Positions 29,945 through 52,440 of a stretch of 64,000 nucleotides of DNA are shown here, piece by piece (within the stretch, counting starts at the first letter, position 1; every line of letters begins with the position of its first letter). This DNA comes from Pseudonocardia parietis. GTDB taxonomy: Bacteria; Actinomycetota; Actinomycetes; Mycobacteriales; Pseudonocardiaceae. The notes below the pieces were generated by a model that was not told where the DNA came from, made no database searches, and saw only the letters and a list, made by a program, of their open reading frames with translations. Made by a program: the position numbers and the translations under genes. The DNA is taken from assembly GCF_017876315.1 (NCBI RefSeq), contig NZ_JAGINU010000001.1, positions 2,976,001-3,040,000 on the forward strand. The letters run 5' to 3'.

Positions 29945-30009
29945 GTGATCACCCGTTGAGGAGTGCAGCGCACGTGAGACGAACGCTGCGCTCCTCAACG
30001 GGTGATCAC
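29945..30009. repeat. 65-bp palindromic repeat, copy A
   Basis: Starts GTGATCACCC and ends GGGTGATCAC. Arms of 26 bases pair except for one G.T, around a 13-base loop. It begins 22 bases after the FhuF-like gene stop. Four more copies of the same length are at 51015, 51202, 51377 and 52376. Confidence 0.85.
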
Positions 30010-30291
30010 CGGGTCGTGGTGGCCCAGCAGAAGGGGTGTGCCCCGCGTGAGGGGTACGTGAGCGCTGCGCGGGCGTGATCGAACCGCTCTCGTGCGCCCC
30101 TCGCCACCGGCCCCGCACGGCGACGACCCGCCTCGCTGACGTCCCGTCACCGCCGGGTGATCACGCACGGACTCGTGCTGCAGCCCCCGGGACGGCACAG
30201 ACCTGCAACGTTCCGCCGTACCGTCGCCGACCGGACACACCGGGACGATAGGGTCACGCCGCACTGATCAACCGAACCGTGGAGTCGATTC
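30010..30291. other. Intergenic stretch before DUF4178 gene
   Basis: No gene seen. It holds a GTGATCAC palindrome at 30158-30165 without the rest of the 65-bp repeat, and a -10-like TAGGGT at 30249-30254 that probably serves the DUF4178-DUF4247-DUF350-aminopropyltransferase run. Confidence 0.45.
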
Positions 30292-30894
30292 GTGATCGAG
30301 TTCCTGCTCGGCGTGCTGGCGGTCGTCGCCGTCGTCGTGGTCGTCGTCCTGATCCTGCGATCACGGTCGTCGGCCGGCACGTCCGCGCCCCGGCGCACCG
30401 ATCCGCTGGCCAACGAGCCGGATCTCTACGACCCGCACCGGATCGGGGTGGGGGACGTCATCACCTACGCCGGGGTCGATCACGTCGTTCGCGGCACCAT
30501 CGTGCTGGAGGAGGGCGGTGTGCAGTGGCGCGAGCACCTGCTCGACTCCTCGGCCGGCCGTCCCTGGCTCAGCGTCGAGGACGACGAGGGCGAGCTGGAG
30601 ATGGTCCTCTGGACCAGGCGCGAGGACGCCGCCGGCCTCGTCCCGGACGGTGACGTCGTCCTCGACGACCGGGTGCACCGCCAGATCGAGCGGGGCCGCG
30701 CGTCGTTCACCGCCGAGGGCACCACCGGAACCTCCGCGACGGGGTCGGTCGACTACGCCGACTACGCGACCGCCGACGGCACCGGCCTGCTCGCGTTCGA
30801 GCGCTGGGCGGCGACCCAGTCCTGGGAGATCTCCACCGGCCGGGCGATCTCCCGTGGCGAGCTCGTCGTACTCCACTCGGCACCGCCTGAATGA
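30292..30894 (+). CDS. DUF4178 domain protein
   Basis: Protein of 200 residues with one N-terminal membrane anchor (FLLGVLAVVAVVVVVVLIL) and a DUF4178 domain (GVGDVITYAGVDHVVRGTI, WREHLLDS, LSVEDDEGELEMVLW). The function of the domain is unknown. GTG start at 30292. Its stop overlaps the next start by four bases. This domain recurs with DUF350 and spermidine-synthase-like genes in other bacteria, as it does here, which hints at a polyamine-related membrane process. Confidence 0.8.
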   Translation: MIEFLLGVLAVVAVVVVVVLILRSRSSAGTSAPRRTDPLANEPDLYDPHRIGVGDVITYAGVDHVVRGTIVLEEGGVQWREHLLDSSAGRPWLSVEDDEGELEMVLWTRREDAAGLVPDGDVVLDDRVHRQIERGRASFTAEGTTGTSATGSVDYADYATADGTGLLAFERWAATQSWEISTGRAISRGELVVLHSAPPE

Positions 30895-31307
30895 GCGGGC
30901 GGGTCCGGGCCGGGACACGGCTCGCGTGCGTGCTGCTCGTCTGCGCGCTGCTCGGCGGTTGTGGGATCGGCACCGACGTCCGTGACGTGATCGAGGATCG
31001 CTACCCGCTGCAGCAGCGCACCGGGGACACGGCCGTCTACACCTCGAACGAGCCGGTGAGCAGCACCGCCGCGGCCATCGCGGGTGCCGTCCGCCCGGCC
31101 GCCCGGTCGACCGACCGCGGTGCCGAGTACCTGCGCTACGACGACGACATCGTGATCGTCAGCCCGGCACCGGCCGGGAGCACCGTCCAGGTCGAGGACC
31201 TCGACGGCCGCTACCGCGGCGGAGCGTTCGTCTTCCTCGGTCCCGGGTTCCGCCCGGGCTCCCCGGCCGCCGGGGGCTTCGGCGGCGGACCCGGAGGCAT
31301 CAAATGA
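30891..31307 (+). CDS. DUF4247 lipoprotein
   Basis: Secreted lipoprotein of 138 residues: basic start, hydrophobic core and lipobox LLGGC (acylated Cys near residue 24). The mature part (IEDRYPLQQRTGDTAVYTS, YDDDIVIVSPAPAGSTVQVEDL) fits DUF4247, unknown function; the tail is Gly-rich. Coupled by ATGA overlap to the DUF4178 gene, so both are made together and probably meet at the outer face of the membrane. Confidence 0.8.
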   Translation: MSGRVRAGTRLACVLLVCALLGGCGIGTDVRDVIEDRYPLQQRTGDTAVYTSNEPVSSTAAAIAGAVRPAARSTDRGAEYLRYDDDIVIVSPAPAGSTVQVEDLDGRYRGGAFVFLGPGFRPGSPAAGGFGGGPGGIK

Positions 31308-31344
31308 CCGATCTCGCCGGACCGGCGACCCGCAGGAGTGACTG

Positions 31345-31809
31345 GTGAACACGACGAATCTGGCAGTGGAGTTCGGACCGGTCTCGGGTGACCTGCTCGG
31401 GCAGGGGGTGATCGCCACCCTGCTGTACTTCGTGATCGGTTTCGCCGTGCTCGGTCTGGGCTTCCTGGCGCTCGACCTGATCACCCCGGGGGATCTGCGG
31501 ACCCAGGTCTACACCGACCGGAACCCGAACGCCGCGGTCCTGCTGGGGGCCAACCACCTCGCCCTGGCGATCATCGTCGTCACGGCGATCCTGACCAGCG
31601 CCGACTCGCTCGCCCAGGGCCTGGTCGACTCGGCGGTGTACGGGCTGCTGGGCGTGGTGCTCCAGGCCGTCGCGCTCCGGCTGCTCGACGTGTTCGTGCC
31701 CGGCCACCTGCGGAACCTGGTCAACGAGCCGCGGTTGAACGGCGCGGCGTGGGCGGTCGGCGCCAGCCTGGTGGCGATCGGTGCGGTGAACGCGGCCGCC
31801 CTGTCCTGA
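31345..31809 (+). CDS. DUF350 membrane protein
   Basis: Four-helix membrane protein of 154 residues built of two DUF350-type repeats: GVIATLLYFVIGFAVLGLGF with DLITPGDL, and the second half VYGLLGVVLQAVALRLLD with RNLVNEPR. GTG start with AGGAG upstream. It follows the DUF4247 gene by 37 bases and precedes the aminopropyltransferase gene by 40. Function unknown. Confidence 0.8.
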   Translation: MNTTNLAVEFGPVSGDLLGQGVIATLLYFVIGFAVLGLGFLALDLITPGDLRTQVYTDRNPNAAVLLGANHLALAIIVVTAILTSADSLAQGLVDSAVYGLLGVVLQAVALRLLDVFVPGHLRNLVNEPRLNGAAWAVGASLVAIGAVNAAALS

Positions 31810-31849
31810 GGACCGGTGGGCCGGTCCGTGCCGGAAGGAGGCTGACGCC

Positions 31850-33433
31850 ATGACGGCCGAGCCGACCGAGCAGCAGGTGCCGCCCGTGCTCCGCCGCCGT
31901 GGGCGCGCACTGCTGCTCGCCGCCGTCGCCGCGTGCGCCGCCTGCGGGCTGACCTACGAACTGGTGCTGCTGACGCTGTCGACCGGGCTGACCGGGGGCG
32001 GGATCACCCAGACGTCACTGATCGTCGCGGGCTACGTCGCGGCGCTGGGCGCGGGTGCCCTGCTGGTCAAGCCGCTGCTGGCGCACGCGGCCACGGTGTT
32101 CGTGGCGGTCGAGATCCTGCTCGGGCTGCTCGGCGGGCTGTCCGCGGTGGCCCTGTACGTGACGTTCTCCTACTACGGCACGGACACCGCGGTCCTGATC
32201 ATCGCGACCGCGGTGCTCGGCGCGCTGGTCGGCGCCGAGGTCCCGCTGCTGATGACGTTGCTGCAGTCCGGCCGGTCCGGCACCGACGCGACGGGAACCG
32301 GGCGGGTGCTGGCCAACCTGAACGCCGCGGACTACGCGGGGGCGTTGCTCGGCGGGCTCGCGTGGCCGTTCCTGCTGCTGCCGCTGGCCGGCCAGATCCG
32401 CGGCGCGGCGCTGATCGGCGTGGTCAACCTGGTCGCCGCCGCGGTGCTCGCCGCGTTCCTGCTGCGCCGGGCGATGAGCCGACGGGCCCGGTGGGGGGCG
32501 ACCGTGGCCCTGCTCGTGGCCGCCTCGCTGCTCGGCGGGTTGATCGCCACCGCGGCCGACGTCGAGGTGAACGCGCGGCAGCGGCTCTACGCCGATCCCG
32601 TGGTCGTCGCGGAGCGCACCGCCTACCAGGAGGTCGTGCTCACCGAACGCGACGGGGACACGCGCCTGTACCTCGACGGGGACCTGCAGTTCTCCAGCGA
32701 GGACGAGCACCGCTACCACGAGGCGCTGGTCCATCCGGCGCTGTCGCAGGACCCTGGGCGGGTTCTCGTCGTGGGTGGCGGGGACGGGCTGGCCGCGCGC
32801 GAGGTGCTGCGGCACCCGTCGGTGCGCGAGGTGGTGCAGGTGGAGCTGGACCCGGCGGTGCTCGAACTGGGCCGGACCCGGCTCGCCGGGCTGAACGGCG
32901 ACGCCCTGAACGACCCCCGGATGCAGGTCGTGGTCGACGACGCGTTCCGCTGGCTCCGGGAGCGGGCGGTCGGCGCGGCCCCGGAACCGGCCGGCTTCGA
33001 CGCCGTGATCGTGGACCTGCCGGACCCGGACACCCCGGCGCTGGGGCGTCTCTACTCCACCGAGTTCTACGGCCTGGTGCGCGCCGCGACCAACCCGGGC
33101 GGGCTGGTGGTGGTGCAGGCGGGCAGCCCGTACTCGACGCCCGCGGCGTACTGGCGCACGGTCTCGACGATCCGGTCGGCCGGGTGGGCCGTCACCCCGT
33201 ACCACGTGCACGTGCCGAGCTTCGGGGACTGGGGTTTCGCACTCGCCCGGGTGGGTCCGTCGCCCCCGGTCCCCGGCCTCTCGGCGCAGGCACCCGCGAT
33301 GCGCTACCTCGACGAGGCGGTGCTGCGCGCCGCCGCGGTCTTCCCCCGGGACCGGCGGCCGCAGGAGCTCCCGCCGAGCACGCTGGACCGTCCCCGGATC
33401 GTGGAGGACCTGCGGCAGGGCTGGAGCTCGTGA
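31850..33433 (+). CDS. Membrane-bound polyamine aminopropyltransferase (SpeE-like)
   Basis: Spermidine-synthase-like protein of 527 residues. The first 240 residues form about seven membrane helices (for example YELVLLTLSTGLTGGGITQT, VFVAVEILLGLLGGLSAVAL). The rest is a soluble SpeE-type domain with QEVVLTER, DLQFSSEDEHRYHEALVHP, VLVVGGGDGLAAREVLRH (nucleotide-binding loop) and VIVDLPDPDTPALGRLYS. It would transfer an aminopropyl group from decarboxylated S-adenosylmethionine to a polyamine or similar amine. No speD is nearby. GAAGGAGG precedes the ATG. It ends the DUF4178-DUF4247-DUF350 run. Confidence 0.85.
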   Translation: MTAEPTEQQVPPVLRRRGRALLLAAVAACAACGLTYELVLLTLSTGLTGGGITQTSLIVAGYVAALGAGALLVKPLLAHAATVFVAVEILLGLLGGLSAVALYVTFSYYGTDTAVLIIATAVLGALVGAEVPLLMTLLQSGRSGTDATGTGRVLANLNAADYAGALLGGLAWPFLLLPLAGQIRGAALIGVVNLVAAAVLAAFLLRRAMSRRARWGATVALLVAASLLGGLIATAADVEVNARQRLYADPVVVAERTAYQEVVLTERDGDTRLYLDGDLQFSSEDEHRYHEALVHPALSQDPGRVLVVGGGDGLAAREVLRHPSVREVVQVELDPAVLELGRTRLAGLNGDALNDPRMQVVVDDAFRWLRERAVGAAPEPAGFDAVIVDLPDPDTPALGRLYSTEFYGLVRAATNPGGLVVVQAGSPYSTPAAYWRTVSTIRSAGWAVTPYHVHVPSFGDWGFALARVGPSPPVPGLSAQAPAMRYLDEAVLRAAAVFPRDRRPQELPPSTLDRPRIVEDLRQGWSS

Positions 33434-33451
33434 ACCGAGCCGGGAAAGCGC

Positions 33452-34189
33452 TCAGCGGCGGCGGACCGCGCGCTGGACGCTCCGCATCTTGGCGCCCTGG
33501 GGCATGGGGCCCTTCGGCATCGCCGCGGTGCGGTTGCCCAGCGCGTTGAGCTTGCCCTCCAGCGAGTCCATCTCCGCGGCGGAGATGTTGCGGGGCAGCT
33601 TCATCAGGTGGCGCTGCAGGCCCCTGAGCGGGACCTGCCCCTCCTCGTTCCCGACGACCACGTCGTAGATCGGGGTGTTGCCGGCGACCCGCGCGGTGCG
33701 CTTCTTCTCCTGCGCGAGCAGGGTCTTCACCCGGTGCGGGGCGCCCTCGGCGACGAAGATGATCCCGGGCCGCCCGATGACCCGGTGCACGGCGTCGAGG
33801 TGCGTGTTACCCGCGATGCCCTGGGTGATCCGCCACTGCCCGCGCATGTTGTCCAGCGCCCAGCCTCCGGCGCCCGGCTGTCCCTCGGCCTTCACGTAGA
33901 TCGACTTCTGCACCCGGCGGCCGAAGATGCTGAACGCCGCCAGCCCGCCGATGGCCACGCCGAACGGGACGAAGAACCAGGTGAGCCCGAACAGCCAGCC
34001 GACGAGGGTGAGCAGCGCGATCGAACCGACGAAGACGCCGATCATGATCGGGAGGAGTTTCTTGTCCTCCTTGCGCTGCATCTGGAACGCCTGCCAGATC
34101 TGCTGGCGACGCTGCTTCGACGCGGCCTTCTTCTGGGCCTTGAGCGCCTTCTTCTCTTCGGGCGTGGGCTTGCGGGGCTTGCCGGGCAT
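33452..34189 (-). CDS. DUF4191 membrane protein
   Basis: Protein of 245 residues with a highly basic N-terminus (KKALKAQKKAASKQRRQQ), two adjacent membrane helices (LPIMIGVFVGSIALLTLVG; FVPFGVAIGGLAAFSIF) and a soluble C-terminal part (RGQWRITQGIAGNTHLDAVH). This is the actinobacterial DUF4191 family; the homologue lies next to lipA in M. tuberculosis too. Function unknown. A TAGGCT hexamer ends six bases before the ATG. Confidence 0.85.
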   Translation of the reverse strand: MPGKPRKPTPEEKKALKAQKKAASKQRRQQIWQAFQMQRKEDKKLLPIMIGVFVGSIALLTLVGWLFGLTWFFVPFGVAIGGLAAFSIFGRRVQKSIYVKAEGQPGAGGWALDNMRGQWRITQGIAGNTHLDAVHRVIGRPGIIFVAEGAPHRVKTLLAQEKKRTARVAGNTPIYDVVVGNEEGQVPLRGLQRHLMKLPRNISAAEMDSLEGKLNALGNRTAAMPKGPMPQGAKMRSVQRAVRRR

Positions 34190-34195
34190 GCGTCC

Positions 34196-34201
34196 AGCCT
34201 A
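34196..34201 (-). promoter_or_regulatory. -10 hexamer before DUF4191 gene
   Basis: TAGGCT on the minus strand, six bases upstream of the ATG at 34189; fits leaderless transcription. Confidence 0.45.
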
Positions 34202-34236
34202 CTTCTGGGCGGTGATCAATGGTGCGAGCAGGTGTC

Positions 34237-35241
34237 TCAGCTGCGCGCGAGCAGGGAACTGGCCTCCTGCGTGGCCGGGCCGGAGTCGACCAGGTGTGCC
34301 AGGTCGGGGTGCAGTTCCTGGCCGCGGTGCGCGACGGTCTGGGCGTAGAGCCGCCCGGCCCGGTACGACGAACGCACCAGCGGGCCGGCCATGACACCGG
34401 CGAACCCGATCTCCTCGGCGGCCTTGGAGTGCTCGACGAACTCCTCGGGCTTCACCCACCGCTCGACGGGGTGGTGGCGCTTGGTCGGGCGCAGGTACTG
34501 GGTGATCGTGATGATCTCGCAGCCGGCCTCGTGCAGGTCGCGCAGCGCCTCGGTGACCTCGTCCGGGGTCTCGCCCATGCCCAGGATCAGGTTCGACTTG
34601 GTCACCAGGCCGTCGGCGCGGGCCTTGGTGATGACCTCGAGCGAGCGCTCGTAGCGGAACGCGGGCCGGATCCGCTTGAAGATCCGGGGGACGGTCTCCA
34701 CGTTGTGCGCGAGCACCTCGGGCCGGGTGTCGAACACCGGGCCGAGCTGGTCGTCGCGGGAGTTGAAGTCCGGGATCAGCAGTTCGACGCCGGTGCCCGG
34801 GTTCATCTCGTGGATCTTGCGGACGGTCTCGGCGTAGAGCCAGGAGCCGCCGTCGTCGAGGTCGTCGCGGGCGACACCGGTGACGGTGGAGTAGCGCAGC
34901 CCCATCTGGCGCACCGACTCGGCGACCCGGCGGGGCTCGTCGACGTCGAGGTCGGTGGGACGGCCGGTGTCGATCTGGCAGAAGTCACAGCGCCGCGTGC
35001 ACTGCTCACCACCGATCAGGAACGTCGCCTCCCGGTCCTCCCAGCACTCGTAGATGTTGGGGCAACCGGCCTCCTCGCACACCGTGTTGAGCCCGCCCGA
35101 GCGGACGAGGCTCTTGAGCTCGGTGTACTGCGGGCCGGTCCGGGCGCGGGTGCGGATCCAGGACGGCTTGCGCTCGATCGGGGTCTCGCTGTTACGGACC
35201 TCGAGACGGAGCAGTTTGCGGCCTTCGGGTGCGACGGTCAC
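34237..35241 (-). CDS. lipA: Lipoyl synthase
   Basis: Radical-SAM enzyme of 334 residues that inserts two sulfurs into protein-bound octanoyl groups. Both iron-sulfur clusters are visible: the auxiliary cluster motif [13 protein letters not shown] and the radical-SAM motif CTRRCDFCQ. It acts after LipB (37664) on the lipoyl domains of SucB (40801), all encoded in this window. The GTG start overlaps the upstream SDR stop by four bases, but a TAGGGT hexamer also lies six bases upstream inside the SDR gene, so the gene may have its own leaderless promoter. Confidence 0.96.
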
Positions 35242-36164
35242 GCGTTCACCCTACGCCCGGGGTCCGGTGTGACGCCGGTCGCCGCAGCGGTGGCCCGCCA
35301 CAGTCGTCCGGCGAGTACCGGGTCCTGGGCGGCGGCCGACCGGCGCGCCGGCCCGGCCGGTCCGCGCAGCTCACCGGGCCCGGAGGGGCCCAGGTAGTCG
35401 CCACCGTGCACCGGCCCGGTGGCGGCGGCGAGCTGCGGCGCGGTGCCGTCCTCGACGGGCTGGACGAGCCACCGGTCCGGCAGCGAGTAGATCCGGCCCT
35501 TCCACGCGCCGCGGCCGCCGCGCCGGAACGAGTTCGCGAGCAGCGACGACTCGGTCATCCCCGGGTGCGCGGCCACCGACAGCACCGGGTCGCCCGCGAG
35601 GCGCAGCCGCCGGTCGAGCTCGGCGGTGAACAACAGGTTCGCCAGCTTCGACGCCCCGTACGCACCGTTGGGGGAGTAGCGGCGGCGGGTCCGGTACAGG
35701 TCGGTGGGGTCGAGCCGGCCCATGGCGTGGCCCAGGCTGGAGGTCGTCACCACCCGGGAGGGCTGCTCGTGGTCCCCGGCCGCGCGCAGGGCCGGCATCA
35801 CCAGCCAGGTCAGGGCCGCCGGACCGAGGTGGTTCGTCCCGATCTGCAGCTCGAAGCCGTCCGCGGTCGCGGCCCGCGGCCCCATCGCGACGCCCGCGTT
35901 GTTGACCAGGATGTCGAGCCGGTCGCCGGTGCGGTCCCGGACCTCCGCGGCGGCGGTCCGCACCGACGCCAGGTCGGCGAGATCGAGCAGCACGAGCTCG
36001 CCGCCCGCCCGTTCCGCGGCGGCCTGCCCGCGGGCGGTGTCGCGCGCCGTCATCAGCACCCGGGCCCCGGCTCCGGCGAACGCGGCGGAGAGGGCGGCGC
36101 CGAGCCCGGACGTCGTCCCGGTGACGAGCACGGTACGGCCGGTGAGATCGGGGAGCGGGTGCAC
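35238..36164 (-). CDS. Short-chain dehydrogenase/reductase
   Basis: SDR of 308 residues: cofactor loop [22 protein letters not shown], active-site YGASKLAN (Tyr and Lys). The layout ([14 protein letters not shown], long C-terminal part) resembles the retinol-dehydrogenase/protochlorophyllide-reductase-like group that uses NADP. Substrate unknown. It precedes lipA with a four-base overlap, and its start lies 35 bases from the divergent LLM-class gene, with opposing -10 hexamers in between. Confidence 0.85.
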
Positions 36165-36199
36165 GGCGCGACGGTAGCGGGCCGCTAGCGTGCTGCGGC
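36165..36199. promoter_or_regulatory. Divergent leaderless promoter pair
   Basis: The 35 bases between two divergent start codons hold TACCGT on the minus strand (36176-36171, six bases from the SDR GTG) and TAGCGT on the plus strand (36186-36191, eight bases from the LLM GTG). There is no room for leaders, so both messages would begin at or next to their start codons and the two polymerases would compete for the same stretch. Confidence 0.5.
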
Positions 36200-37132
36200 G
36201 TGGACTTCCGGATCTTCACCGAACCTCAGCAGGGCGCGACCTACTCCGATCTCCTGCGGGTGGCGCGCACCACCCAGGACGCGGGGTACGACGCGTTCTT
36301 CCGCTCCGACCACTGGGTCGCGATGGGCGACGGCGACGGCCTGCCCGGGCCGACCGACGCCTGGATGACGCTGGCCGCGCTGGGCCGCGAGACCGAGCGG
36401 ATCCGGCTGGGCACACTCGTCACCAGCGCGACGTTCCGGCTGCCCGGACCGCTCGCCGTCGCCGTCGCGCAGGCCGACGAGATGTCCGGCGGCCGGGTCG
36501 AGCTCGGCCTCGGCACCGGCTGGTTCGAGGCCGAGCACACCGCCTACGGCATCCCGTTCCCGCCGCTGCGGCAGCGTTTCGAGATCCTCACCGAGCAGCT
36601 GGAGATCCTCACCGGGATGTGGGCGACCCGGCCCGGCGAGCGGTTCACCCACCGCGGGGAGCACTACACGGTCGTCGACTCGCCGGCCCTGCCGCGCCCC
36701 GTGCAGGACGCCCCGCCGGTGATCGTCGGCGGGATGGGACGGGCGAAGACGCCCGCGCTGGCGGTCCGGTTCGCCGCCGAGTTCAACGTCCCGTTCCAGG
36801 CGCCCGACGCCACTGCCGAGCAGTTCGGCCGGGTCCGCGACGCCTGCCGCGCGGCCGGCCGCGACCCGGCGGAGCTGACGTACTCGGTGGCCCAGATGCT
36901 CTGCCTGGGCCGCGACGACGCCGAGGTCGCCCGCCGGGCCGACGCGGTGGGCCGCGACGTGGCCGAGGTCCGCGAGAACTGCCTCGCCGGGACCCCCGGC
37001 GAGATCGTCGACCGGCTCGGCACCTGGGCCGAGCGGACCGGCACCACGCGGGTCTACCTGCAGATCCTCGACCTGTCCGACCTGGACCACCTGGAGGACT
37101 TCGCCTCGCTGGTCGTGCCCGAGATCAGCTGA
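36200..37132 (+). CDS. LLM-class F420-dependent oxidoreductase
   Basis: Second luciferase-like TIM-barrel oxidoreductase of the window, 310 residues. Typical segments: FRIFTEPQQGATYSDLLRVA, YDAFFRSDHWVAMG, RIRLGTLVTSATFRLPGPLA, GRVELGLGTGWFEAEHTAYG and PPVIVGGMGRAKTPALA. Probably uses F420. The substrate is unknown. Its TGA stop directly abuts the TCA of the convergent ArsR-type gene, so TGATCA supplies both stop codons. Confidence 0.87.
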   Translation: MDFRIFTEPQQGATYSDLLRVARTTQDAGYDAFFRSDHWVAMGDGDGLPGPTDAWMTLAALGRETERIRLGTLVTSATFRLPGPLAVAVAQADEMSGGRVELGLGTGWFEAEHTAYGIPFPPLRQRFEILTEQLEILTGMWATRPGERFTHRGEHYTVVDSPALPRPVQDAPPVIVGGMGRAKTPALAVRFAAEFNVPFQAPDATAEQFGRVRDACRAAGRDPAELTYSVAQMLCLGRDDAEVARRADAVGRDVAEVRENCLAGTPGEIVDRLGTWAERTGTTRVYLQILDLSDLDHLEDFASLVVPEIS

Positions 37133-37627
37133 TCAGCCGGTCCCCAGCTGCCCCCCGATGTCGGCGGCGGCCGTGAGCAGGACCAGCGCGGGCACGACGG
37201 CGCGCGGCGCGATCCGGTAGCTGCCGCGGCCGTCCTGCTCGACGAGTCCGGCGTGGGTCAGTGCCTTGAGGTGGTGGTAGAGCTGCCCGGTCGAGGCCAG
37301 CTCCGCGACCTCGGTGAGCTCGGCCGTGCCGCGCGGGCCGTGCAGCAGGCCGCGGACGATCCGGACCCGCACGGGGTGGCCGAGCGCGGCGAGTACGGCG
37401 GTGCGGGGCTCGTCGTCCAGGGCCAGGGTCGCGGCGACGTCGTACTCGACGGTCCAGGCGATCTCGCCGTGCAGGGCGACCTCGCCCGAGTAGCGGACGG
37501 TCCCGGCCCCGGAGGCCGCGGCACCCCCCGTCCCGCGGCCTCCGACGTCCCGCTCGCCGATCCGCTGTTCGAGTGCGACGACCCGGTGCTCCAGGTCGGA
37601 CAGACGGCGGTCGGCGTCAGCGGTCAC
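37133..37627 (-). CDS. ArsR-like winged-helix regulator
   Basis: Protein of 164 residues. A short coiled N-terminus (RRLSDLEHRVVALEQRIGE) and a Gly/Ala-rich linker precede a winged helix of the ArsR/helix-turn-helix type: RTAVLAALGHPVRVRIVRGL, then AELASTGQLYHHLKALTHAGLVEQDGRGSYR-type sequence. No Cys metal ligands. It faces the LLM-class gene, with adjoining stop codons, and may regulate it. Confidence 0.8.
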   Translation of the reverse strand: MTADADRRLSDLEHRVVALEQRIGERDVGGRGTGGAAASGAGTVRYSGEVALHGEIAWTVEYDVAATLALDDEPRTAVLAALGHPVRVRIVRGLLHGPRGTAELTEVAELASTGQLYHHLKALTHAGLVEQDGRGSYRIAPRAVVPALVLLTAAADIGGQLGTG

Positions 37628-44684: not shown

Positions 44685-44690
44685 CGCCCC

Positions 44691-45548
44691 TCAGCGCCGC
44701 AGGGACCGTGCCTTGCGGGCCCCGACCGCCCGCATCGCCGGTTCCAGCCGCAGCATCGGGCCCGGGAGCAGCGCGGTGAGCCGCAGCATCGCACCGCGCC
44801 AGGCCGGGAGCGTGCGGTAGACGCGGCTCCTGCCGAACATCTCCACCAGGCCGGCCGCGACCTGCTCGGTGGTGACCAGGGTGCCGGACCGCACCAGCGC
44901 CTGGCCCTGTCCGCCGGGCTTCATCCCGCGCAGCAGCTCGGTGTTCACCCCGTCCGGGCAGACCGCGTGCACCCGGATGCCTTCTCTGCGCACCTCGGAC
45001 GCGAGCCCGGACACCAGCGACAGCGCACCCGCCTTCGACGCCGCGTACACCGACAGCCCGGGCACCGGGCCGAGCGCCGAGAGCGACACCGTCACGCCGA
45101 TCTCGCCGCCGTGTGCGACGCCGGTGGCGGCCTGCTCGCGGAATGCGGCGACCGCGGCCCGCGCCCCCCACATCGGCCCCAGCAGGTTGACCTCGACCAG
45201 GGCGCGGGCGTGCGCCTCGGACAGCTCGGTGAGCGCCCCGTCGAACCCGACGCCGGCATTGGACACCCAGGCACCGAGCGGGGCGATCGCCCGGGCCTCC
45301 CGGACGACCTCCTGCGCGGCGGCCGGGTCGGTGACGTCGTACGCGAGACCGCCCGCCGCGCCGATCCGGTCGGCGGTGGCGCGCGCGGCGGCCGCGTCGA
45401 GATCGGTGACGAGCACCCGGTAGCCGCGTCCGACGAGTTCGGTGGCGATGGCCTCGCCGATGCCGCGGGCGGCGCCCGTGACCACGGCGGAGCGGGGTGC
45501 GTGCGCGGTGATCTCGTGCCGGCCCGCCCGGCGACGTCGTCCGATCAT
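44691..45548 (-). CDS. Short-chain dehydrogenase/reductase
   Basis: SDR of 285 residues: cofactor loop VTGAARGIGEAIA, VSNAGVGFDG, active-site YAASKAGALSL, and a C-terminal hydrophobic/basic tail (RLTALLPGPMLRLEPAMRAVG) that may contact the membrane. In the M. tuberculosis synteny block this place is held by ephD, an epoxide hydrolase-SDR fusion, so this may correspond to the SDR half. CATACT lies six bases before the ATG. Substrate unknown. Confidence 0.85.
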   Translation of the reverse strand: MIGRRRRAGRHEITAHAPRSAVVTGAARGIGEAIATELVGRGYRVLVTDLDAAAARATADRIGAAGGLAYDVTDPAAAQEVVREARAIAPLGAWVSNAGVGFDGALTELSEAHARALVEVNLLGPMWGARAAVAAFREQAATGVAHGGEIGVTVSLSALGPVPGLSVYAASKAGALSLVSGLASEVRREGIRVHAVCPDGVNTELLRGMKPGGQGQALVRSGTLVTTEQVAAGLVEMFGRSRVYRTLPAWRGAMLRLTALLPGPMLRLEPAMRAVGARKARSLRR

Positions 45549-45562
45549 GGCGGCAGTATGCC

Positions 45563-45592
45563 GCCCGGGGTTACCGACCGGTAGCCCCGGGC
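45563..45592. terminator. Hairpin downstream of pepA
   Basis: GCCCGGGG and CCCCGGGC form an 8-bp stem with an additional inner TACCG/CGGTA pairing, starting five bases beyond the pepA stop on the minus strand. It also lies just upstream of the SDR start. Confidence 0.55.
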
Positions 45593-45597
45593 GGTGC

Positions 45598-47124
45598 TCA
45601 GCCGTTCGCGGCCACGTCCTCCAGGAACGCGACCAGCGTCCGCACCGGCGTGCCGGTGCCGCCCTTGGTCGTGTAGCCGCGGGCCCCGCCGGTGTTGTAG
45701 GAGGGCCCGGCGATGTCGATGTGCGCCCACGGCAGCCCGTCCGGTACGAACTCCTTCAGGAACGTCCCGGCCAGCAGCATCCCGGCGAACCGCTGCCCGC
45801 TGACGTTCGCGATGTCGGCGACCCGGGAGTCCAGGTCGGAGCGCAGGTACTCCGGCAGCGGCATCGCCCAGGCGTCCTCACCGGTCGCGACGCCGTGGCC
45901 GGCCACCCGGTCCCGCAGCTCGTCCGAGCCCATCACCCCGGCGGTGCGCAGACCCAGCGCGACCTGCTGGGCGCCGGTGAGCGTGGAGGTCTCGACCAGG
46001 TAGTCGGGGGCGTCCTCGCCGGCCCGGACGATCGCGTCGGCCAGGATCAGCCTGCCCTCGGCATCGGTGTTGAGCACCTCGACGGTCCGGCCGCCGTACA
46101 TGGTCAGCACGTCGCCGGGCTTGTACGCGGTCGACGACGGCATGTTCTCCGCCATCGGCACCGTCGCGGTCACGGCGACCGGCAGCTCCAGCTTCGCGGC
46201 GAGCACCACGGCGGCGACGACGGCCGCGGCGCCGCCCATGTCCGAGGTCATGTCGGCCATGCCCGCGTTCGGCTTCAGCGAGATGCCGCCGGTGTCGAAG
46301 GTGATGCCCTTGCCGACCAGCGCGACCCGCTTCGCCGGGGCTGTGCCGCCGTTCCAGGTCAGCCGGACCAGGCGGGGCTTGTTCGTCGACCCCTGGCCGA
46401 CGCCGGTGATGCCGCCGTAGCCGTTCTCCCGCAGCCGGTCGTCGTCGAGCACCTCGGTGACCAGTCCGGCCTGCTCGCCGAGCGCCACGGCCCGGGCCGC
46501 GAACGTCTCCGGGACCAGCACGTTCGGCGCGGTGTTCACGAGGTTCCGCGCGGTCGCCACGGCCTCGGCGACCAGCGTCGCGCGGCGGACGCCGTCGTCG
46601 TCCGTGCCGGTGAACGTCCAGGACGCGACCGGCGCGGCGGCGTCCTCGGAGCTCGAACGGTGCACGTCGAAGCGGTAGCCGCCGAGCAGCGCCCCGAGGA
46701 CCGCTGCCTCCGGATCGACCGCAGACAGCGTGCTGATCGCCGACGACGTCCCGGCCAGCGCGCGGGACGCGGCACCCGCGGCCCGCCGGACCAGCTCGGC
46801 GCCCTCCGCGCCGTCGGTGGCCTTGCCCAGGCCGACGGCCACCAGCCGGGGCGCCGCCAGCGCCCCGCGGGTCGGGAGCGACACGACCTGCTCGATCTTG
46901 CCGGTCGCGCCGACGACCCGCAGCAGCTCGGCCAGCTCGCCGCCGAAGGCCGCGTCGACCTCCGCGGCGCCGGGCGCGAGCAGTGGCGCGGCGGAACCGC
47001 CCTCGGACTCGGCCGGGTGCAGGCCGACGACCAGCGCGTCGGCCTCGGTGGTCGTGGGCGGGCCGGTCAGCGCGGCGGTGTCCGGGATGGTCGGTTCGGT
47101 CGGCACGGAGAACTCCTCGGTCAC
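45598..47124 (-). CDS. pepA: Leucyl aminopeptidase (M17)
   Basis: Cytosolic zinc/manganese aminopeptidase of 508 residues acting in peptide turnover. The N-terminal third is variable; the catalytic domain has [16 protein letters not shown] (metal-binding Lys and Asp), [17 protein letters not shown] and the family signature [14 protein letters not shown]. Length is normal. GTG start at 47124 with no clear ribosome binding site. Transcribed as a single gene, ended by the hairpin at 45563. Confidence 0.95.
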
Positions 47125-47321
47125 GGATCGGACTCAGGGTCCGGACGGGCACGGGCGGTCTCGATCGGGTGGCTCGCGGGATCGCGCCCGTACGTACGGT
47201 GACCAGCGAGTGTGCCGCGTGTGCCCGGGCGGGCGGGGAGCGGCCCGGTGAGACCGGACCGAGATGCTAATGACACCCCCGCGGCGCCGCGCGGCACAGG
47301 GTCGGATGGGATGGTGGCCGG

Positions 47322-48674
47322 GTGCCCGCACCCCCGCACCGGATCCGGACCGCGACCGCGGTCGTCGTCGCACTCGCGGCGATGTTCGGTACCGGTCTGT
47401 ACGCGGCGCTCGCCCCCGCCGCCGCGTCCGCCGGGGTGTGGTTCCCGCTCGGTGTCGTCCTCGCCGGGCTCCTCGCACTCGCCGTGGTCGCCTCGACCGC
47501 GCACCTGGCGACGGCCCGGCCGGCCGGGCCGGAACTCGTCCACGGGGACCTGCCCGCCCCGGCGCTCCGCCTCGCCGCCCTCGCACGGCTCGTCTCGCGC
47601 ACGGCTGCGGCCGCCGCGGCGGCCGGCGTGTTCAGCGTCTACGTCCTGCCCTTCCAGCCGCTCCCGGTGGCGGTGATCGCGGTACTCGCCGTGATCGGGG
47701 TGAACGCCGCGGGCGTCCGTGTCTCGCCGGGGGCCTCGACCGGGCTGGTCGTCGGGACGCTGCTGGTGCTCGTGGTCGTCGCGGGGGTCGGGCTGCTGAC
47801 CGCCGCGCCGGACGGAACCGAGGCGTCGACGGCCATGCCCTCGACCGCCTCGACGGCCGTCGCCGACGGGGCCGCGACGGCCGACGTCCCGGTCACCGGC
47901 ACCCTGCAGGCGGCCGTCGAGCCCGGTCCGCTCGGCGTGCTCACCGCGGCGGCCTTCGTGTTCTTCGTCTTCACCGGGCTCTCCCGGGTCGCGGAGTTCG
48001 GTGGCCGCCTGCGCGACCCGATGCGCGCGATCCGCCGGGCCCCGGCGATCGCCGTCCTGATCACGACGGCGCTGCTGCTGGCGCTGTCGGGCGCGCTGCT
48101 GCACGGGCTGGGCGTCGAACTGCTGGCGACCTCGGCGACACCGCTGGCCTCGTTGATGGACGCCGGCGGCAGTCCCGCCGTGGGTGTGCTCGTCCGGATC
48201 GCGGCGGCCGCGGCGACCGCCGCCGCCCTGCTCGGTGCGCTCTCCCGGGCCGCCGACGGAGCGGCCCGGCTGGCCCGCGCAGGCGAGCTGCCCGCGTTCC
48301 TCGGCCGCGGCGGCGCCCGCGGTACGCCGTGGGTCGCCGACCTCGTGCTCGGCGGGCTGACGATCGTCGTCACCGTGGCGGTCGGCCCGGTCGTCGCGAT
48401 CGCGGTCGCGGTCGGTGCGGCGCTGGTCCACCACCTCCTGCTGCACGTGGCCGTCCTGCGGCTGCGCGGCCGTCCGGCCTCGATCGCGTTCGTCGCCGGC
48501 GCGGGCGGGACCGGTTGCCTGGTCCTCGCCGGTGCACTGCCGGTGTGGCCGCTGGCGGCGACCGTGGCGATCCTGGCCGCGGGCTGGGGGATCTGCACGG
48601 TGCACGCACGATCGGCGGTGACCGGCGACGACGCCGAGGCCGACCCGTCGGACCCCGAGGAGCGGGCGGCCTGA
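47322..48674 (+). CDS. APC-superfamily amino acid/amine permease-like protein
   Basis: Membrane transporter of 450 residues with about twelve hydrophobic segments. The first helix has the APC-like GTGLYAALAPAAASAG pattern and helix 6 is FVFFVFTGLSRVAEFGGRLRDP, matching the FAFTGFD-type segment of amino acid permeases. A stretch of about 35 residues rich in Thr/Ala/Ser (residues 165-200) forms an unusually long loop. The substrate is unknown. It ends 18 bases before gcvT. Confidence 0.75.
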   Translation: MPAPPHRIRTATAVVVALAAMFGTGLYAALAPAAASAGVWFPLGVVLAGLLALAVVASTAHLATARPAGPELVHGDLPAPALRLAALARLVSRTAAAAAAAGVFSVYVLPFQPLPVAVIAVLAVIGVNAAGVRVSPGASTGLVVGTLLVLVVVAGVGLLTAAPDGTEASTAMPSTASTAVADGAATADVPVTGTLQAAVEPGPLGVLTAAAFVFFVFTGLSRVAEFGGRLRDPMRAIRRAPAIAVLITTALLLALSGALLHGLGVELLATSATPLASLMDAGGSPAVGVLVRIAAAAATAAALLGALSRAADGAARLARAGELPAFLGRGGARGTPWVADLVLGGLTIVVTVAVGPVVAIAVAVGAALVHHLLLHVAVLRLRGRPASIAFVAGAGGTGCLVLAGALPVWPLAATVAILAAGWGICTVHARSAVTGDDAEADPSDPEERAA

Positions 48675-48679
48675 GGACG

Positions 48680-48685
48680 TAGGGT
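48680..48685 (+). promoter_or_regulatory. -10 hexamer before gcvT
   Basis: TAGGGT ends seven bases before the GTG at 48693; the short spacer after the permease gene has no ribosome binding site. Confidence 0.5.
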
Positions 48686-48692
48686 CGCGGGC

Positions 48693-49808
48693 GTGACCGA
48701 CGATCTTCTGCCCAGCCCGCTGCACGATCGGCACCTCGCCCTCGAGGCCACCCTCGGTGAGTTCGGCGGCTGGTCGATGCCGATCTCCTACCCGGCAGGC
48801 ACCGTCGCCGAGCACACGTCGGTGCGCGAGGCGGCCGGACTGTTCGACGTCAGCCACCTCGGCACCGTCCCGATCACCGGGCCGGGCGCCGCCGCGCACG
48901 TGAACACCTGCCTGACCAACGACCTCGACCGGATCGGCCCGGGGCGGGCGCAGTACACGATGGCGTGCACCCCGGACGGCGGCGTGCTCGACGACATGAT
49001 CATCTACCGGGTGTCGGACGACGACCTGCTGCTCGTGCCGAACGCCGCCAACTCGACCCGGATCATCGAGATGCTGCAGGACGGCGCCCCCGACGGTGTC
49101 ACCGTCACCGACCGGAACCGCGAGCTGGCGGTGCTCGCCGTGCAGGGGCCGCGCTCGGCCGAGGCACTGGCCGCCGCGCTGGGGGAGGCCGGTGCGCACG
49201 TCGCGGAGCTCGACTACATGGGCTTCACCGACCTCGAGGGCGGCGGCGTGCGCGTCTGCCGCACCGGGTACACCGGTGAGCACGGCTACGAGGTCGTGCT
49301 CGACGCCGAGGCCGCCCCCGCCATGTGGGACGCGCTGCTCGAGGCCGTCCGCGCCGTCGGCGGCGGCCCCTGCGGGCTGGCTGCGCGAGACACCCTGCGC
49401 ACCGAGATGGGCTACCCGCTGCACGGCCACGAGCTGTCCGAGCAGATCAGCCCGGTGCAGGCGAACAGCGCGTTCGCGGTCGGCTGGGACAAGCCGGCGT
49501 TCTGGGGCCGGGAGGCGTTGACCGCCGAGCGCGCGGCCGGACCGGCACGACGGGTGCGGGCGTTGAAGGCGACCGGCCGCGGGGTACCGCGGGCCGGCAT
49601 GACCGTGCTCGACGGCGAGGGCGGGAACCCGGTCGGGACCGTCACCTCCGGCACGTTCTCGCCCACCCTGAAGATCGGCGTCGCGCTCGCGCTGATCGAC
49701 ACCGACCCCAAGGTCGCGATCGGCGACACCCTGGTGATCGACGTCCGCGGCCGGGCGCTACCGGTCGAGGTGGTCAAGCCGCCGATGGTGCCGTCGCGGG
49801 TGCGCTGA
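48693..49808 (+). CDS. gcvT: Glycine cleavage system aminomethyltransferase (T protein)
   Basis: T protein of 371 residues: takes the aminomethyl group from lipoylated H protein, releases ammonia and loads tetrahydrofolate. Typical blocks: [23 protein letters not shown] (short form [10 protein letters not shown]), [41 protein letters not shown] and [16 protein letters not shown]. The H and P proteins are not in the window. Because H protein carries lipoate, it too depends on LipA/LipB. Confidence 0.95.
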
Positions 49809-49855
49809 GGGGTCCGTAGGGCGAATCCGGCTGTGTGGGTGCGGTGCGGCAGAGC

Positions 49856-49861
49856 TACCGT
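49856..49861 (+). promoter_or_regulatory. -10 hexamer before ilvE
   Basis: TACCGT ends seven bases before ATG 49869, which selects this ATG over the more upstream in-frame start at 49833. Confidence 0.5.
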
Positions 49862-49868
49862 CTGGTCC

Positions 49869-50990
49869 ATGAGCGCGCCGCAGTTCACCGTGACCCCCAA
49901 CACCGCCCCGGCGTCCCCGCAGCGGCGCGCCGAAGTACTGGCCGACCCCGGCTTCGGCCGGCACATGACCGACCACATGGTGACCATCCGGTACACCGAG
50001 GGCACCGGCTGGCACGACCCGCAGGTCGTGCCGTACGGGCCGTTCACCCTCGACCCGTCGGCGATGGTGCTGCACTACGGCCAGGAGATCTTCGAGGGGC
50101 TCAAGGCCTACCGGCAGCCGGACGGCTCCATCGCGTCGTTCCGGCCCGGGGCCAACGCCGCCCGCTTCGCCGGGTCCGCCCGCCGGATGGCGATGGCCGA
50201 GCTGCCGGAGGACCTGTTCCTCGAGTCGCTGTCCGCGCTGCTCGCGGTGGACTCGGAGTGGGTGCCCGCCGCCGGTGGCGAGGACTCGCTCTACCTGCGC
50301 CCGTTCATGATCGCGACGGAGGTCGGGCTCGGGGTGCGGCCGTCGGCGGAGTACGTCTACGCCGTGATCGCCTCGCCGGCCGGTCCGTACTTCGCGGGCG
50401 GGGTGAAGCCGATGGACGTCTGGCTGGAGACCGAGTACACCCGCGCCGCCCGCGGTGGCACCGGCACCGCCAAGTGCGGCGGCAACTACGCCGCCTCGCT
50501 GCTGCCGCAGGCCGTCGGCGCCCAGCACGGTTGTGCCCAGGTGGCCTACCTCGACGCCGAGGAGCGCACCTGGATCGACGAGATGGGCTCGAACAACCTG
50601 TTCTTCGTCTTCCGCGGCGTCGACGGCAGCCTGGAGCTCGCGACCCCGGAGCTGCGGGACTCGGTGCTCGCCGGGATCACCCGGGACTCGCTGATCACGG
50701 TGGCGCGCGACCTCGGCATCAACGTCGTCGAGCGCCCCATCTCCGGGCAGGAGTGGCTCGGCGGCGCCGCCTCCGGCGTGCTGACCGAGGTGTTCGGCTG
50801 CGGCACCGCCGCGGTGATCACCCCGATCGGGACCGTGAAGCACACCGGCGGCGAGGTGACCGTCGGCGACGGGGAGCCGGGCCCGGTCACGCTGCAGCTG
50901 CGCGAGGCCCTGACCGCGATCCAGCGCGGCGCCGCCCCGGACCCGCACGGCTGGATGCACACCCTCGTCCCCGCCCCCGCCGCGGTCTGA
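49869..50990 (+). CDS. ilvE: Branched-chain amino acid aminotransferase
   Basis: PLP enzyme of fold type IV, 373 residues, for the last step of leucine, isoleucine and valine synthesis. Blocks: HYGQEIFEGLKAYRQPDGSI (short HYGQEIFEGLKAY), YLRPFMIATE, the PLP lysine in GTAKCGGNYAASL, EMGSNNLFFVF and EVFGCGTAAVITPIG. Start ATG 49869 as above. A 65-bp palindromic repeat (copy B) starts 24 bases after the stop and could end its transcript. Confidence 0.95.
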   Translation: MSAPQFTVTPNTAPASPQRRAEVLADPGFGRHMTDHMVTIRYTEGTGWHDPQVVPYGPFTLDPSAMVLHYGQEIFEGLKAYRQPDGSIASFRPGANAARFAGSARRMAMAELPEDLFLESLSALLAVDSEWVPAAGGEDSLYLRPFMIATEVGLGVRPSAEYVYAVIASPAGPYFAGGVKPMDVWLETEYTRAARGGTGTAKCGGNYAASLLPQAVGAQHGCAQVAYLDAEERTWIDEMGSNNLFFVFRGVDGSLELATPELRDSVLAGITRDSLITVARDLGINVVERPISGQEWLGGAASGVLTEVFGCGTAAVITPIGTVKHTGGEVTVGDGEPGPVTLQLREALTAIQRGAAPDPHGWMHTLVPAPAAV

Positions 50991-51014
50991 GCCGGCCACC
51001 GCCCGGTCAGGGTG

Positions 51015-51079
51015 GTGATCACCGGTTGTGGAGTGTGGCGTACGCGTGCCGTGCGCTGCACTCCTCAACGGGTGATCAC
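51015..51079. repeat. 65-bp palindromic repeat, copy B
   Basis: Starts GTGATCACCG, ends GGGTGATCAC. Folds into a near-continuous 30-bp hairpin with a five-base loop; three pairs are G.U when read as plus-strand RNA and two positions are mismatched. 63 of 65 bases equal copy C. Confidence 0.85.
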
Positions 51080-51201
51080 CCCCGCCCGGCGCGGGGTGGC
51101 CCGGGCCGATGCCGCTTCGGGGTCGGTCGCTGCTCGACTCGGATCGCGGCTGAGGTGGTGTGGGGCGCCGACGGAGGTGTGTCCGAGGCCGTCGCGGGGT
51201 G

Positions 51202-51266
51202 GTGATCACCGGTTGTGGAGTGTGGCGTACGTGTGCCGTGCGCTGCACTCCTCAACGGGTGATCAG
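51202..51266. repeat. 65-bp palindromic repeat, copy C
   Basis: Starts GTGATCACCG, ends GGGTGATCAG. Differs from copy B at one internal base and the last base. The first 20 bases after copies B and C are also similar. Confidence 0.85.
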
Positions 51267-51376
51267 TCCCGCTCGGCGCGCGGTGCGCGTGCTTGCCCGG
51301 GAGCCGGATGCTCGTCGGCTTTGCCCGGCGATGCCCGTCTCGGCTGGTGGCGGGGTGTCTGGCAGGTGCCGGGGCG

Positions 51377-51441
51377 GTGATCATCCGTTGAGGAGTGTGG
51401 CGTACGCGTGCCGTGCGCTGCACTCCTCAACGGGTGATCAC
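51377..51441. repeat. 65-bp palindromic repeat, copy D
   Basis: Starts GTGATCATCC, ends GGGTGATCAC; 62 of 65 bases equal copy B. Its right end overlaps the stop codon of the DUF559 gene (TCA at 51438-51440 read on the minus strand as TGA). Confidence 0.85.
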
Positions 51442-52334
51442 TCGCCCAGGGCCCGGAGGATCCGGGCGATGGTCAGGTCCGGTTCCTCGGTCACGTCGTG
51501 CCAGGTGAACCGCAGCAGGGTCCAGCCGGCGGCGACCAGGTCGTTGCCCTTGGTCCGATCGGCGGCGAAGCGGGCCGGGTCGACGTGCCAGGCCCAGCCG
51601 TCGAGCTCGATCGCGACCCGCTCGGCCGGGAACGCAATGTCGATCTCGCGTCCGCCGCCGAGAGGGAGCCCGCGGACGAAGCCGGTCAGGCCCGCCGCAC
51701 GCAGCAGCCGGAGCAGCCGCCGCTCCAGTGCCGAGTCGGCCCGGTCCAGGGCGGCGACCAGCAGCGTGTGCGCGGCGGCCATCCCGTGCGCGCCGGCGTT
51801 GCGGCAGTAGGCGGCGTGCAGCCGTCGTGGTGTCGTCCACCGGCGCTGCAGGGCGCGATCGAGGAAGGCGGCGCCGTCCGGGATCGTCGCGCACGTCTCC
51901 AGGACGGTCAGCGCGTGGGCGGTGACCAGCACGCCGCGGTGCCACATCCGGTCCTCCACGGGGATCATTCGGCGCCGCAAGCGGATCCCCGACGGTGCGC
52001 GGCGCCGGACCGAGTTCGCCACGGTGATCTCGACGAGGTCGGGCACCGGTGCGGGCATTCCCAGCCAGGACGCGGCAGCGGGCCCGCTGACCAGCCCGTC
52101 CTCGCCCACCCACAACCACGCCGCGCGGATCGTGGTGTCACCGCCGGGCGCGTGCGTCGTGTCGTGCAGGACGCCGGGGTGGACGTCCTCCCACTCACCG
52201 CGGGCGACGCGGCGCCGGATCATGGAGGGGGACAGCCCGCTGTGCAGCGCCTGCTCCCGGGAGACGACACCGTCCTGCGCGCGAAGGAGATTCCGGATCA
52301 GCACCGCGCCAGGGTCGTCTGCCGGACCCGCCAC
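51438..52334 (-). CDS. AbiEi-like winged helix plus DUF559 nuclease-like domain protein
   Basis: Protein of 298 residues. The N-terminal part resembles the winged helix of AbiEi-type antitoxins (RAQDGVVSREQALHSGLSPS, then EWEDVHPGVLHDT). The C-terminal DUF559 part has the Vsr/restriction-endonuclease-like core: REIDIAFPAERVAIELDGW, HVDPARFAADRTKGNDLVAAG and WTLLRFTWHDV, keeping the E-D...E-D and R-K-N-L positions expected of that fold. Such proteins are numerous in actinobacteria and their role is unknown; neither toxin nor methylase is adjacent. Its stop codon lies in palindrome D and its start 42 bases from palindrome E, so it is bracketed by the repeat family. Start GTG 52334. Confidence 0.75.
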   Translation of the reverse strand: MAGPADDPGAVLIRNLLRAQDGVVSREQALHSGLSPSMIRRRVARGEWEDVHPGVLHDTTHAPGGDTTIRAAWLWVGEDGLVSGPAAASWLGMPAPVPDLVEITVANSVRRRAPSGIRLRRRMIPVEDRMWHRGVLVTAHALTVLETCATIPDGAAFLDRALQRRWTTPRRLHAAYCRNAGAHGMAAAHTLLVAALDRADSALERRLLRLLRAAGLTGFVRGLPLGGGREIDIAFPAERVAIELDGWAWHVDPARFAADRTKGNDLVAAGWTLLRFTWHDVTEEPDLTIARILRALGE

Positions 52335-52375
52335 CGAGGCCGGTCGGCCCAGCCGGTTCGCTCGGGCGAACGCGA

Positions 52376-52440
52376 GTGATCACGCGTTGGGGAGTGCAGC
52401 GCACGCGACGCGTCGGCTGCACTCCACAACGCGTGATCAG
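52376..52440. repeat. 65-bp palindromic repeat, copy E
   Basis: Starts GTGATCACGC, ends GCGTGATCAG. The most divergent copy, but the C-G pair at positions 9 and 57 of copy A is G-C here, a compensatory change that keeps the stem. Its right end overlaps the cobS stop codon (TCA 52437-52439). Confidence 0.8.

Follow-up and report, generated by a model that had tools for sequence, protein, structure and literature searches.

What are the five near-symmetric palindromes that lie between the genes of this 64-kb stretch of Pseudonocardia parietis DNA (the window), and what could have distributed them? The original prediction described five 65-bp elements and took them for either a defined REP/MITE-like unit or a structured RNA/terminator family; their coordinates, ends and shared blocks were all verified in the sequence. 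Copy A (29945..30009), a dispersed palindrome recognized by sequence, folding and a covariance model, lies 22 bp beyond the stop codon of a gene on the plus strand (29161-29922) that has a weak FhuF-like match. Copy B (51015..51079) follows the stop of ilvE (branched-chain aminotransferase; 49869..50990, plus strand) by 24 bp and has copy C (51202..51266) as its tandem neighbour. Copies D (51377..51441) and E (52376..52440) bracket a minus-strand gene encoding a DUF559 protein (51438..52304): D lies downstream and contains the TGA stop of this gene, and E lies upstream and contains the TGA stop of a cobS-like gene (adenosylcobinamide-GDP ribazoletransferase; 52437..53327, minus strand; best models below curated cut-offs). 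The cobS-like gene and, on the other side, ilvE are the host neighbours; none of the palindromes is assigned to a strand.

The folding energies of copies A to E range from -48 to -56 kcal/mol (z-scores between -8.4 and -12.5), and none of 200 shuffles folded as well. They were also the top five hits in a palindrome scan of the window, with scores of 20–25 and the next hit at 18; 20 dinucleotide shuffles of the window gave best scores of 13–20, one of them matching the weakest of the five. The claim that the copies are not simple duplications of one spot needs a qualification: B, C and D are nearly identical (85–94% over 89 bp) and adjacent and may therefore be local duplications, and A and E are more divergent.

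A 65-bp repeat family at gene 3' ends

A half-arm pattern allowing up to three mismatches matched the genome 67 times, and its reversed control never. A covariance model built from 22 copies gave 109 strand matches, which merged into 55 distinct sites, of 65 bp in 53 cases, 66 bp in one and 52 bp in another, the last having an internal deletion. None of the 55 sites overlaps a called gene. Both ends are marked by TGATC...GATCA, with no GTAG/GTRG head, and the flanks are not conserved beyond the palindrome; TGATCA could itself be the duplicated target. A search of plasmids with the 65-bp element gave no match. Of 126 palindromes, 84% had their nearest palindrome in their own genome against 26% expected, a figure inflated by tandem clusters, and mean identity was no higher within genome G000 (0.74) than between G000 and G014 (0.75).

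As for position relative to gene ends, which the original prediction had proposed to note, the copies crowd at gene 3' ends. Among gene 3' ends facing a copy, 36 of 64 are within 30 bp of it, compared with 2 of 46 5' ends, and the copies often provide the stop codon of the adjoining gene. Convergent gaps are enriched as well (18 of 55 copies vs 45 of 295 gaps; odds 2.7, p 0.004). Together with the very high stability of the hairpins, these positions speak for a host function, in which the palindromes would be bidirectional terminators or 3'-end stabilisers and their adjacency to DUF559 genes would be secondary.

Pairing within the stem reached 87.0% in 22 copies vs 86.6% after shuffling, and 1235 of 1590 cells in 53 copies vs 1200 (sd 11.7; maximum of 1000 shuffles 1232), so that arm-to-arm pairing is barely above what independent variation of the arms gives. 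No Rfam model matched the window at the gathering threshold, and below it the region 50900-52600 matched only unrelated models, namely eukaryotic or viral microRNAs and one sRNA. With so little covariation and no Rfam match at threshold, a structured RNA/terminator family is the less supported half of the original prediction, although terminator action is possible as a side-effect of the palindromes. The other half, a defined REP/MITE-like unit, agrees with the dozens of fixed-length intergenic copies, with genome-specific subfamilies and with two orthologous gaps that carry no palindrome.

Orthologous sites with and without a palindrome

Those gaps come from four flanking genes with matches in two relatives, which gave seven ortholog loci; the next gene is conserved in three of them and the remaining four are not syntenic. 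The gap behind glmS measures 95 bp in G000, where it contains a copy, 6 bp in G014, where it has no palindrome, and 100 bp in G062, where the palindrome is an unrelated one. At the indolepyruvate oxidoreductase gene, the gap measures 161 bp in G000, again containing a copy, and 44 bp in G062, which has no palindrome there. Filled and empty sites, as anticipated for a mobile repeat, are represented by two palindrome-free gaps between species, but no exact empty-site junction was found among these loci.

The cobS comparison covered 30 loci; the gene was not called in G026 or G029, and G060 has a contig end there. In G062 and G023, two convergent genes end in a bare TGATCA within which their stop codons overlap, a candidate for the state of the site before insertion. 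In G014, this locus holds a degenerate half-copy, and the window-type DUF559 unit lies at another place; G000, G001 and G027 carry that unit at cobS. In G007, G018, G031 and G032, unrelated hairpins sit in the same slot behind the gene, and this recurrence, like the unrelated palindrome behind glmS, again favours terminators or stabilisers. Downstream of the acyl-CoA dehydrogenase gene, the layout varies between species across 30 genomes.

DUF559 genes between matching palindromes

The gene between D and E encodes an AbiEi_4 N-terminal domain and a DUF559/MTES_1575 nuclease C-terminal domain; its start codon is a call, and an alternative start opens the frame to 52334. Four Pseudonocardia genomes contained 27 DUF559 matches, of which two, whose surrounding open frames span 1575 and 1901 aa, were excluded. 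A repeat common to both flanks (score of at least 18) accompanied 23 of the 25 stand-alone loci and 3 of 134 control genes, the inner window being wider for some DUF559 ORFs (150 bp) than for controls (60 bp). The bracketed set comprises 21 loci scoring at least 18, two of them marginal (L252, 18.2; L256, 19.2), plus two broken genes (L263, 51.4; L266, 29.0); L247 and L253 showed no shared repeat, and one control reached 22. The D–E unit scored 43.8. A palindrome scan placed a 63–67 bp palindrome on both sides of 16 of the 25 genes. The association of palindromes with DUF559 genes is well supported.

Different DUF559 lineages carry different palindromes. Protein and palindrome similarity were correlated over all 25 loci (Mantel r=0.55, 0 of 5000 permutations) and within class I alone (n=13, r=0.33, 30 of 5000), with the exception of L240 and L248, whose proteins are 73% identical and whose palindromes are merely 45% alike. 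The P. parietis genome itself has a second DUF559 gene, at 3.818 Mb, with its own 64-bp palindrome; a pattern for it matched 12 genome sites, 11 of them intergenic, and its reversed control none.

A role as terminators or 3'-end stabilisers does not account for this two-sided bracketing, nor for sequences that match the DUF559 lineage, a length fixed at 65 bp and arms that are both conserved in sequence yet covary little, and we consider a purely host function unlikely. A second alternative makes the palindromes operators of the AbiEi-like domain or decoys for it, the upstream copy serving autorepression and the others a regulon or titration, with no movement by the protein. A copy does often lie shortly upstream of the DUF559 gene, and AbiEi_4 matched 18 of 30 DUF559 proteins (AbiEi models, 4 of 5). 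Against operators stand the second, downstream copy, which holds the gene's stop codon in 9 of 12 TGATC-type two-sided cases, the location of dispersed copies at 3' rather than 5' ends, and the nuclease residues D222, E233, D235, H240, D249 and R265, invariant in all 30 aligned proteins; this role alone is quite improbable. The AbiEi-like N-terminus also recalls the AbiE type IV toxin–antitoxin system, a reading rejected for this locus: the protein has a fused nuclease domain, and the adjacent genes are cobS-like and ilvE, with no AbiEii partner beside it.

Fixed length, terminal inverted repeats and the 52-bp copy with its internal deletion would suit a MITE whose full-length relative is a conventional DDE transposon with the same ends. 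However, no coding unit other than DUF559 was found between copies, and the bracketed gene was the nuclease in every case examined. The 571 genes around the copies likewise share no dominant family (largest clusters of 15, 11 and 8 members), and all half-arm matches belong to paired copies except a lone half at 5469996, a single arm adjoining a gene start, with no recognisable IS end and no transposase seen there. Such an origin is very doubtful, even though MITEs, too, are short imperfect palindromes bounding a unit. Common families, such as transporters, recur among the genes beside copies; among the fetched loci, no DDE transposon sharing the terminal repeats was seen. Integron attC cassettes are likewise units bounded by short imperfect palindromes; no integrase was seen with the palindromes here. 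An ordinary REP/REPIN system run by a RAYT (Y1 transposase) would have the same overall architecture, as described for RAYTs (PMC2817692), and is scarcely credible, since the gene between the palindromes encodes no HUH enzyme and this genome has no Y1_Tnp (PF01797) match in a search whose control was positive in 5 of 14 reference genomes.

A candidate REP-like system with a DUF559 nuclease

The DUF559 bracket at D and E, which the original prediction had overlooked, is what explains the family best, and we propose the DUF559 protein as the trans-acting partner of the palindromes. In our main reading, to which we give a probability of roughly 0.6, the palindromes are REP-like repeats and cognate sites of the DUF559 nuclease, palindrome–nuclease–palindrome (D to E, ~1.06 kb, 51377..52440, minus strand) is a candidate autonomous unit, and palindromes standing alone are non-autonomous and owe their spread to action in trans. 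We infer that a DUF559 homodimer would bind both 30-bp half-sites within a single palindrome, its AbiEi-like N-terminus acting in DNA binding and its Vsr/EDxHD-type C-terminus as nuclease, that it would cut at the palindrome and that the palindromes are probably spread by this dimer. Lone copies would land mostly just behind genes, where the TGATCA end would keep or supply the stop codon. Against this reading, an unregulated nuclease that cut the chromosome at 55 sites would do harm.

The best solved relatives of the protein are 3hrl (2.8e-16) and the EDxHD homing endonuclease I-Bth0305I (3r3p, 6.9e-7), the latter relating to the C-terminal nuclease domain; Vsr matched weakly (1cw0, 0.28). According to a review (PMC3943268), I-Bth0305I forms a dimer on a target nearly 60 bp long, a length that resembles the 65-bp dyad, and the Vsr-like domain with its conserved acidic/His residues is present in DUF559. 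Unlike EDxHD homing endonuclease genes, the DUF559 gene lies outside any intron or intein, between two intact palindromes and with its own proposed site unsplit, and the palindrome sites are dispersed.

The closest parallel is REP-RAYT-REP/REPIN (RAYT, TnpAREP), which shares dispersed intergenic palindromes, a nuclease gene between two cognate palindromes, several lineages per genome with their own repeats, a protein–repeat correlation and local clusters (compare PMC2817692 and PMC3116915). There are also differences: the enzyme is DUF559 (Vsr/EDxHD with an AbiEi-like N-terminus) and not a Y1 HUH transposase, the palindromes measure 60–67 bp vs 20–40 bp for REPs (PMC3733652), they are near-symmetric and lack the GTAG head (as described in PMC2817692), and the units were found in Actinobacteria. 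Of the papers retrieved for DUF559 (PF04480, MTES_1575, PF18741), none deals with repeats by title or abstract start, and those retrieved for DUF559 together with palindromes are unrelated by title and abstract, in a collection that largely leaves out subscription papers and preprints.

By name, DUF559/MTES_1575 proteins have a domain whose function is not known, and a DNA site of their own would supply a substrate on which the family could be tested. AbiEi–DUF559 proteins come up in matches as antitoxins or as defence genes; if the main reading is true, it warns against counting them as AbiE defence systems, provides a partner for actinobacterial repeat families without a RAYT and means that a REP-plus-nuclease lifestyle evolved around an enzyme other than a HUH one. 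The spread of REP-like repeats, a long-open question, would become testable in a second, independent system. A further and more tentative proposal, whose chances we put slightly below even, is that the ~1-kb palindrome–DUF559–palindrome is a transposable-element class unrelated to RAYT/IS200-IS605. In it, a homodimeric AbiEi-Vsr/EDxHD nuclease would read a ~65-bp dyad and spread both the unit and lone palindromes behind stop codons. Many lineages, each with repeats private to it, would coexist in one genome, and this across Actinobacteria, as a REP system evolved convergently on a restriction-enzyme-like fold. The window gene had no match among viral contigs. The bracketed arrangement also occurs in six further actinobacterial genera, where 7 of 19 DUF559 ORFs of at least 270 aa scored at least 22, the other 12 having no bracket, and none of 21 control ORFs reached 18; a DUF559 gene on a Tsukamurella plasmid scored 35.4 vs 11.6–15.8 for three of its neighbours.

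Dispersal and genic context of the 65-bp palindromes

The five 65-bp palindromes of the window (at 29945, 51015, 51202, 51377 and 52376) match their earlier description and are beyond chance. A covariance model taking 22 copies as input gave 109 strand matches at 55 sites in the same genome (8.1 Mb, contamination estimate 5.47, with the window at 2976001-3040000 on contig C1). Copy length was 65 bp at 53 sites, 66 bp at one and 52 bp at one, and the symmetrised consensus is GTGATCACCGGTTGTGGAGTGCnGCGTACGCnnnGCGTACGCnGCACTCCACAACCGGTGATCAC. Overlap of the 55 copies with called genes never exceeded a few bases, genes being called with a simple codon model made for this analysis; the gaps were convergent (18), co-directional (28) or divergent (9). 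Of the gene 3' ends facing a copy, 36 of 64 lay within 30 bp, compared with 2 of 46 facing 5' ends, and 14 of the 64 used the TGA within the terminal TGATC of the copy. Two copies held a stop codon inside both ends.

Pairing between the arms of 22 copies was 87.0%, against 86.6% in shuffles, the arms varying almost independently. With 53 copies, 1235 of 1590 positions paired versus 1200 (sd 11.7) in shuffles, a small excess located mostly in the outer arm. Without being decisive, this variation fits a conserved RNA stem less well than it fits two sequence-constrained half-sites or subfamily decay after insertion. Outside the families considered here, the genome contains another TGATC-type palindrome of 66 bp (L081:3602-3667, GTGATCATCGTGTCAGTGCC...), and an intergenic palindrome at 57605-57644 of the window, with two TGATCATG units (AGGGCCCCGTCGTGATCATGCGTGATCATGACGGGGCCCT), was excluded from the family by its length.

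Palindromes in related genomes

Under stricter filters, the 65-bp model matched 15 of 60 genomes (own included), all within the 36 of the same genus, and none of the 24 from other genera; being built from the P. parietis genome (G000), it under-counts diverged families elsewhere. Some weak matches were other palindromes, such as L063 in G010. The palindromes of related genomes share the TGATC...GATCA ends and have almost equal length, with different interiors, and a 61-bp core was present in 114 of 126 palindromes from six genomes. The nearest relative lay within the same genome for 84% of these 126 (permutation mean 26%, maximum 42%), a figure inflated by tandem clusters, and mean identity was 0.74 within G000, no higher than the 0.75 between G000 and G014. 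One such cluster (G031 contig C62, L155:3970-5311) places seven related palindromes in tandem over 1.3 kb between two genes, with no called DUF559 gene among them. In G014, a perfect palindrome of ~47 bp, ACTCATGGAGCTTT...AAAGCTCCATGAGT, is repeated at gene ends (L094:4635-4697, L106:719-783 and L317, the last behind the indolepyruvate oxidoreductase gene), and similar text lies behind cobS in G061 (L182).

DUF559 genes bracketed by palindromes

The window DUF559 gene (51438..52304, minus strand) is flanked by the copies at 51377 and 52376. The same arrangement behind cobS was found in G001 and G027 and is absent there in most other species; the closest DUF559 match of G014, with 75% identity, occupies a different locus and is likewise bracketed. 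A PF04480 search of four genomes gave 27 hits. Two of them, not bracketed, end open frames of 1901 and 1575 aa in G027 (L257 and L261), presumably multi-domain proteins, and were set aside. Scored for a repeat common to both flanks, 23 of the remaining 25 loci had one: 21 at a score of at least 18 and a further two in which the gene is broken, L263 (51.4) and L266 (29.0, its scoring window positioned after its palindromes had been seen). L252 and L256 were marginal, and the repeat was absent at L247 and L253. Among 134 control genes, three scored at least 18 and one at least 22. A palindrome of 63-67 bp stood on both sides at 16 of the 25 loci. Twelve of these had TGATC...GATCA ends, with the DUF559 stop codon within the downstream palindrome in nine; the other four had different ends, and their proteins fall on another branch.

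Palindrome similarity was correlated with protein similarity, at r 0.55 for 25 loci (0 of 5000 permutations as high) and r 0.33 for the 13 loci of the TGATC class (30 of 5000), using palindromes chosen by hand; the L240/L248 pair ran counter to the trend. The palindrome pattern of a second G000 DUF559 gene, at 3.818 Mb, matched 17 half-sites at 12 sites in that genome, whereas its reversed control gave no match there. All 12 sites were palindromic and 11 intergenic, one lying within a called gene. Isolated dispersed copies of this family and of a third, that of L254, were also present, as incidental finds, in other stretches examined.

A phylum-wide sample of 60 genomes contained DUF559 in 20. 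Of 27 loci retrieved from these, eight scored at least 18 and seven at least 22 (7 of 19 ORFs of at least 270 aa), compared with 0 of 21 control ORFs at 18 or more. These seven represent six genera other than Pseudonocardia. L278 has two perfect or near-perfect palindromes of 48-50 bp. The repeats common to the two flanks of L283 and of L271 have no clear palindromic character. L283 (DUF559 ORF 832-1746) carries long tandem GC-rich repeats in both flanks, with a common stretch of 180 bases. A plasmid gene of Tsukamurella tyrosinosolvens annotated as DUF559 has 41-bp palindromes on both sides and scores 35.4, versus 11.6-15.8 for three neighbours.

The DUF559 protein and the class of element

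All 30 aligned proteins matched DUF559 and MTES_1575, and 18 matched AbiEi_4. Six positions with a charged residue or His, as is typical of these nucleases, were invariant. The best solved relatives by sequence were 3hrl and the mobile-intron protein 3r3p, which we take to be I-Bth0305I, followed weakly by PvuRts1I and Vsr; AbiGI/AbiEi-type proteins matched the N-terminal part at E 0.3-0.4. A review describes EDxHD enzymes as dimerising on targets nearly 60 bp long (PMC3943268); by inference, a dimer of this kind would need a dyad like the near-symmetric 65-bp palindrome.

Among orthologous gaps, those at glmS in G014 and at indolepyruvate oxidoreductase in G062 were free of palindromes; a third held an unrelated palindrome, and four comparisons were not syntenic. 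Since a bare TGATCA lies where two stop codons overlap behind cobS in G062 and G023, TGATCA may be the insertion target of the palindromes. Insertion there would leave both stops intact, as seen for the two copies in which each end contains a stop. The arrangement resembles REP-RAYT systems, in which dispersed palindromes accompany a Y1 transposase, in the way it works. However, the defining Y1 enzyme is absent from the G000 genome and the bracketed enzyme is unrelated, and therefore the palindrome-DUF559 system is not a member of that group; there is a fair chance that it constitutes a separate class of mobile element.

In the convergent gap 3' of cobS, unrelated near-perfect hairpins of 60-66 bp were observed in G007 (L207), G032 (L204), G018 (L193) and G031 (L200), the one common to G007 and G032 being GCAACGAACGGCAC...GTGCCGTTCGTTGC.
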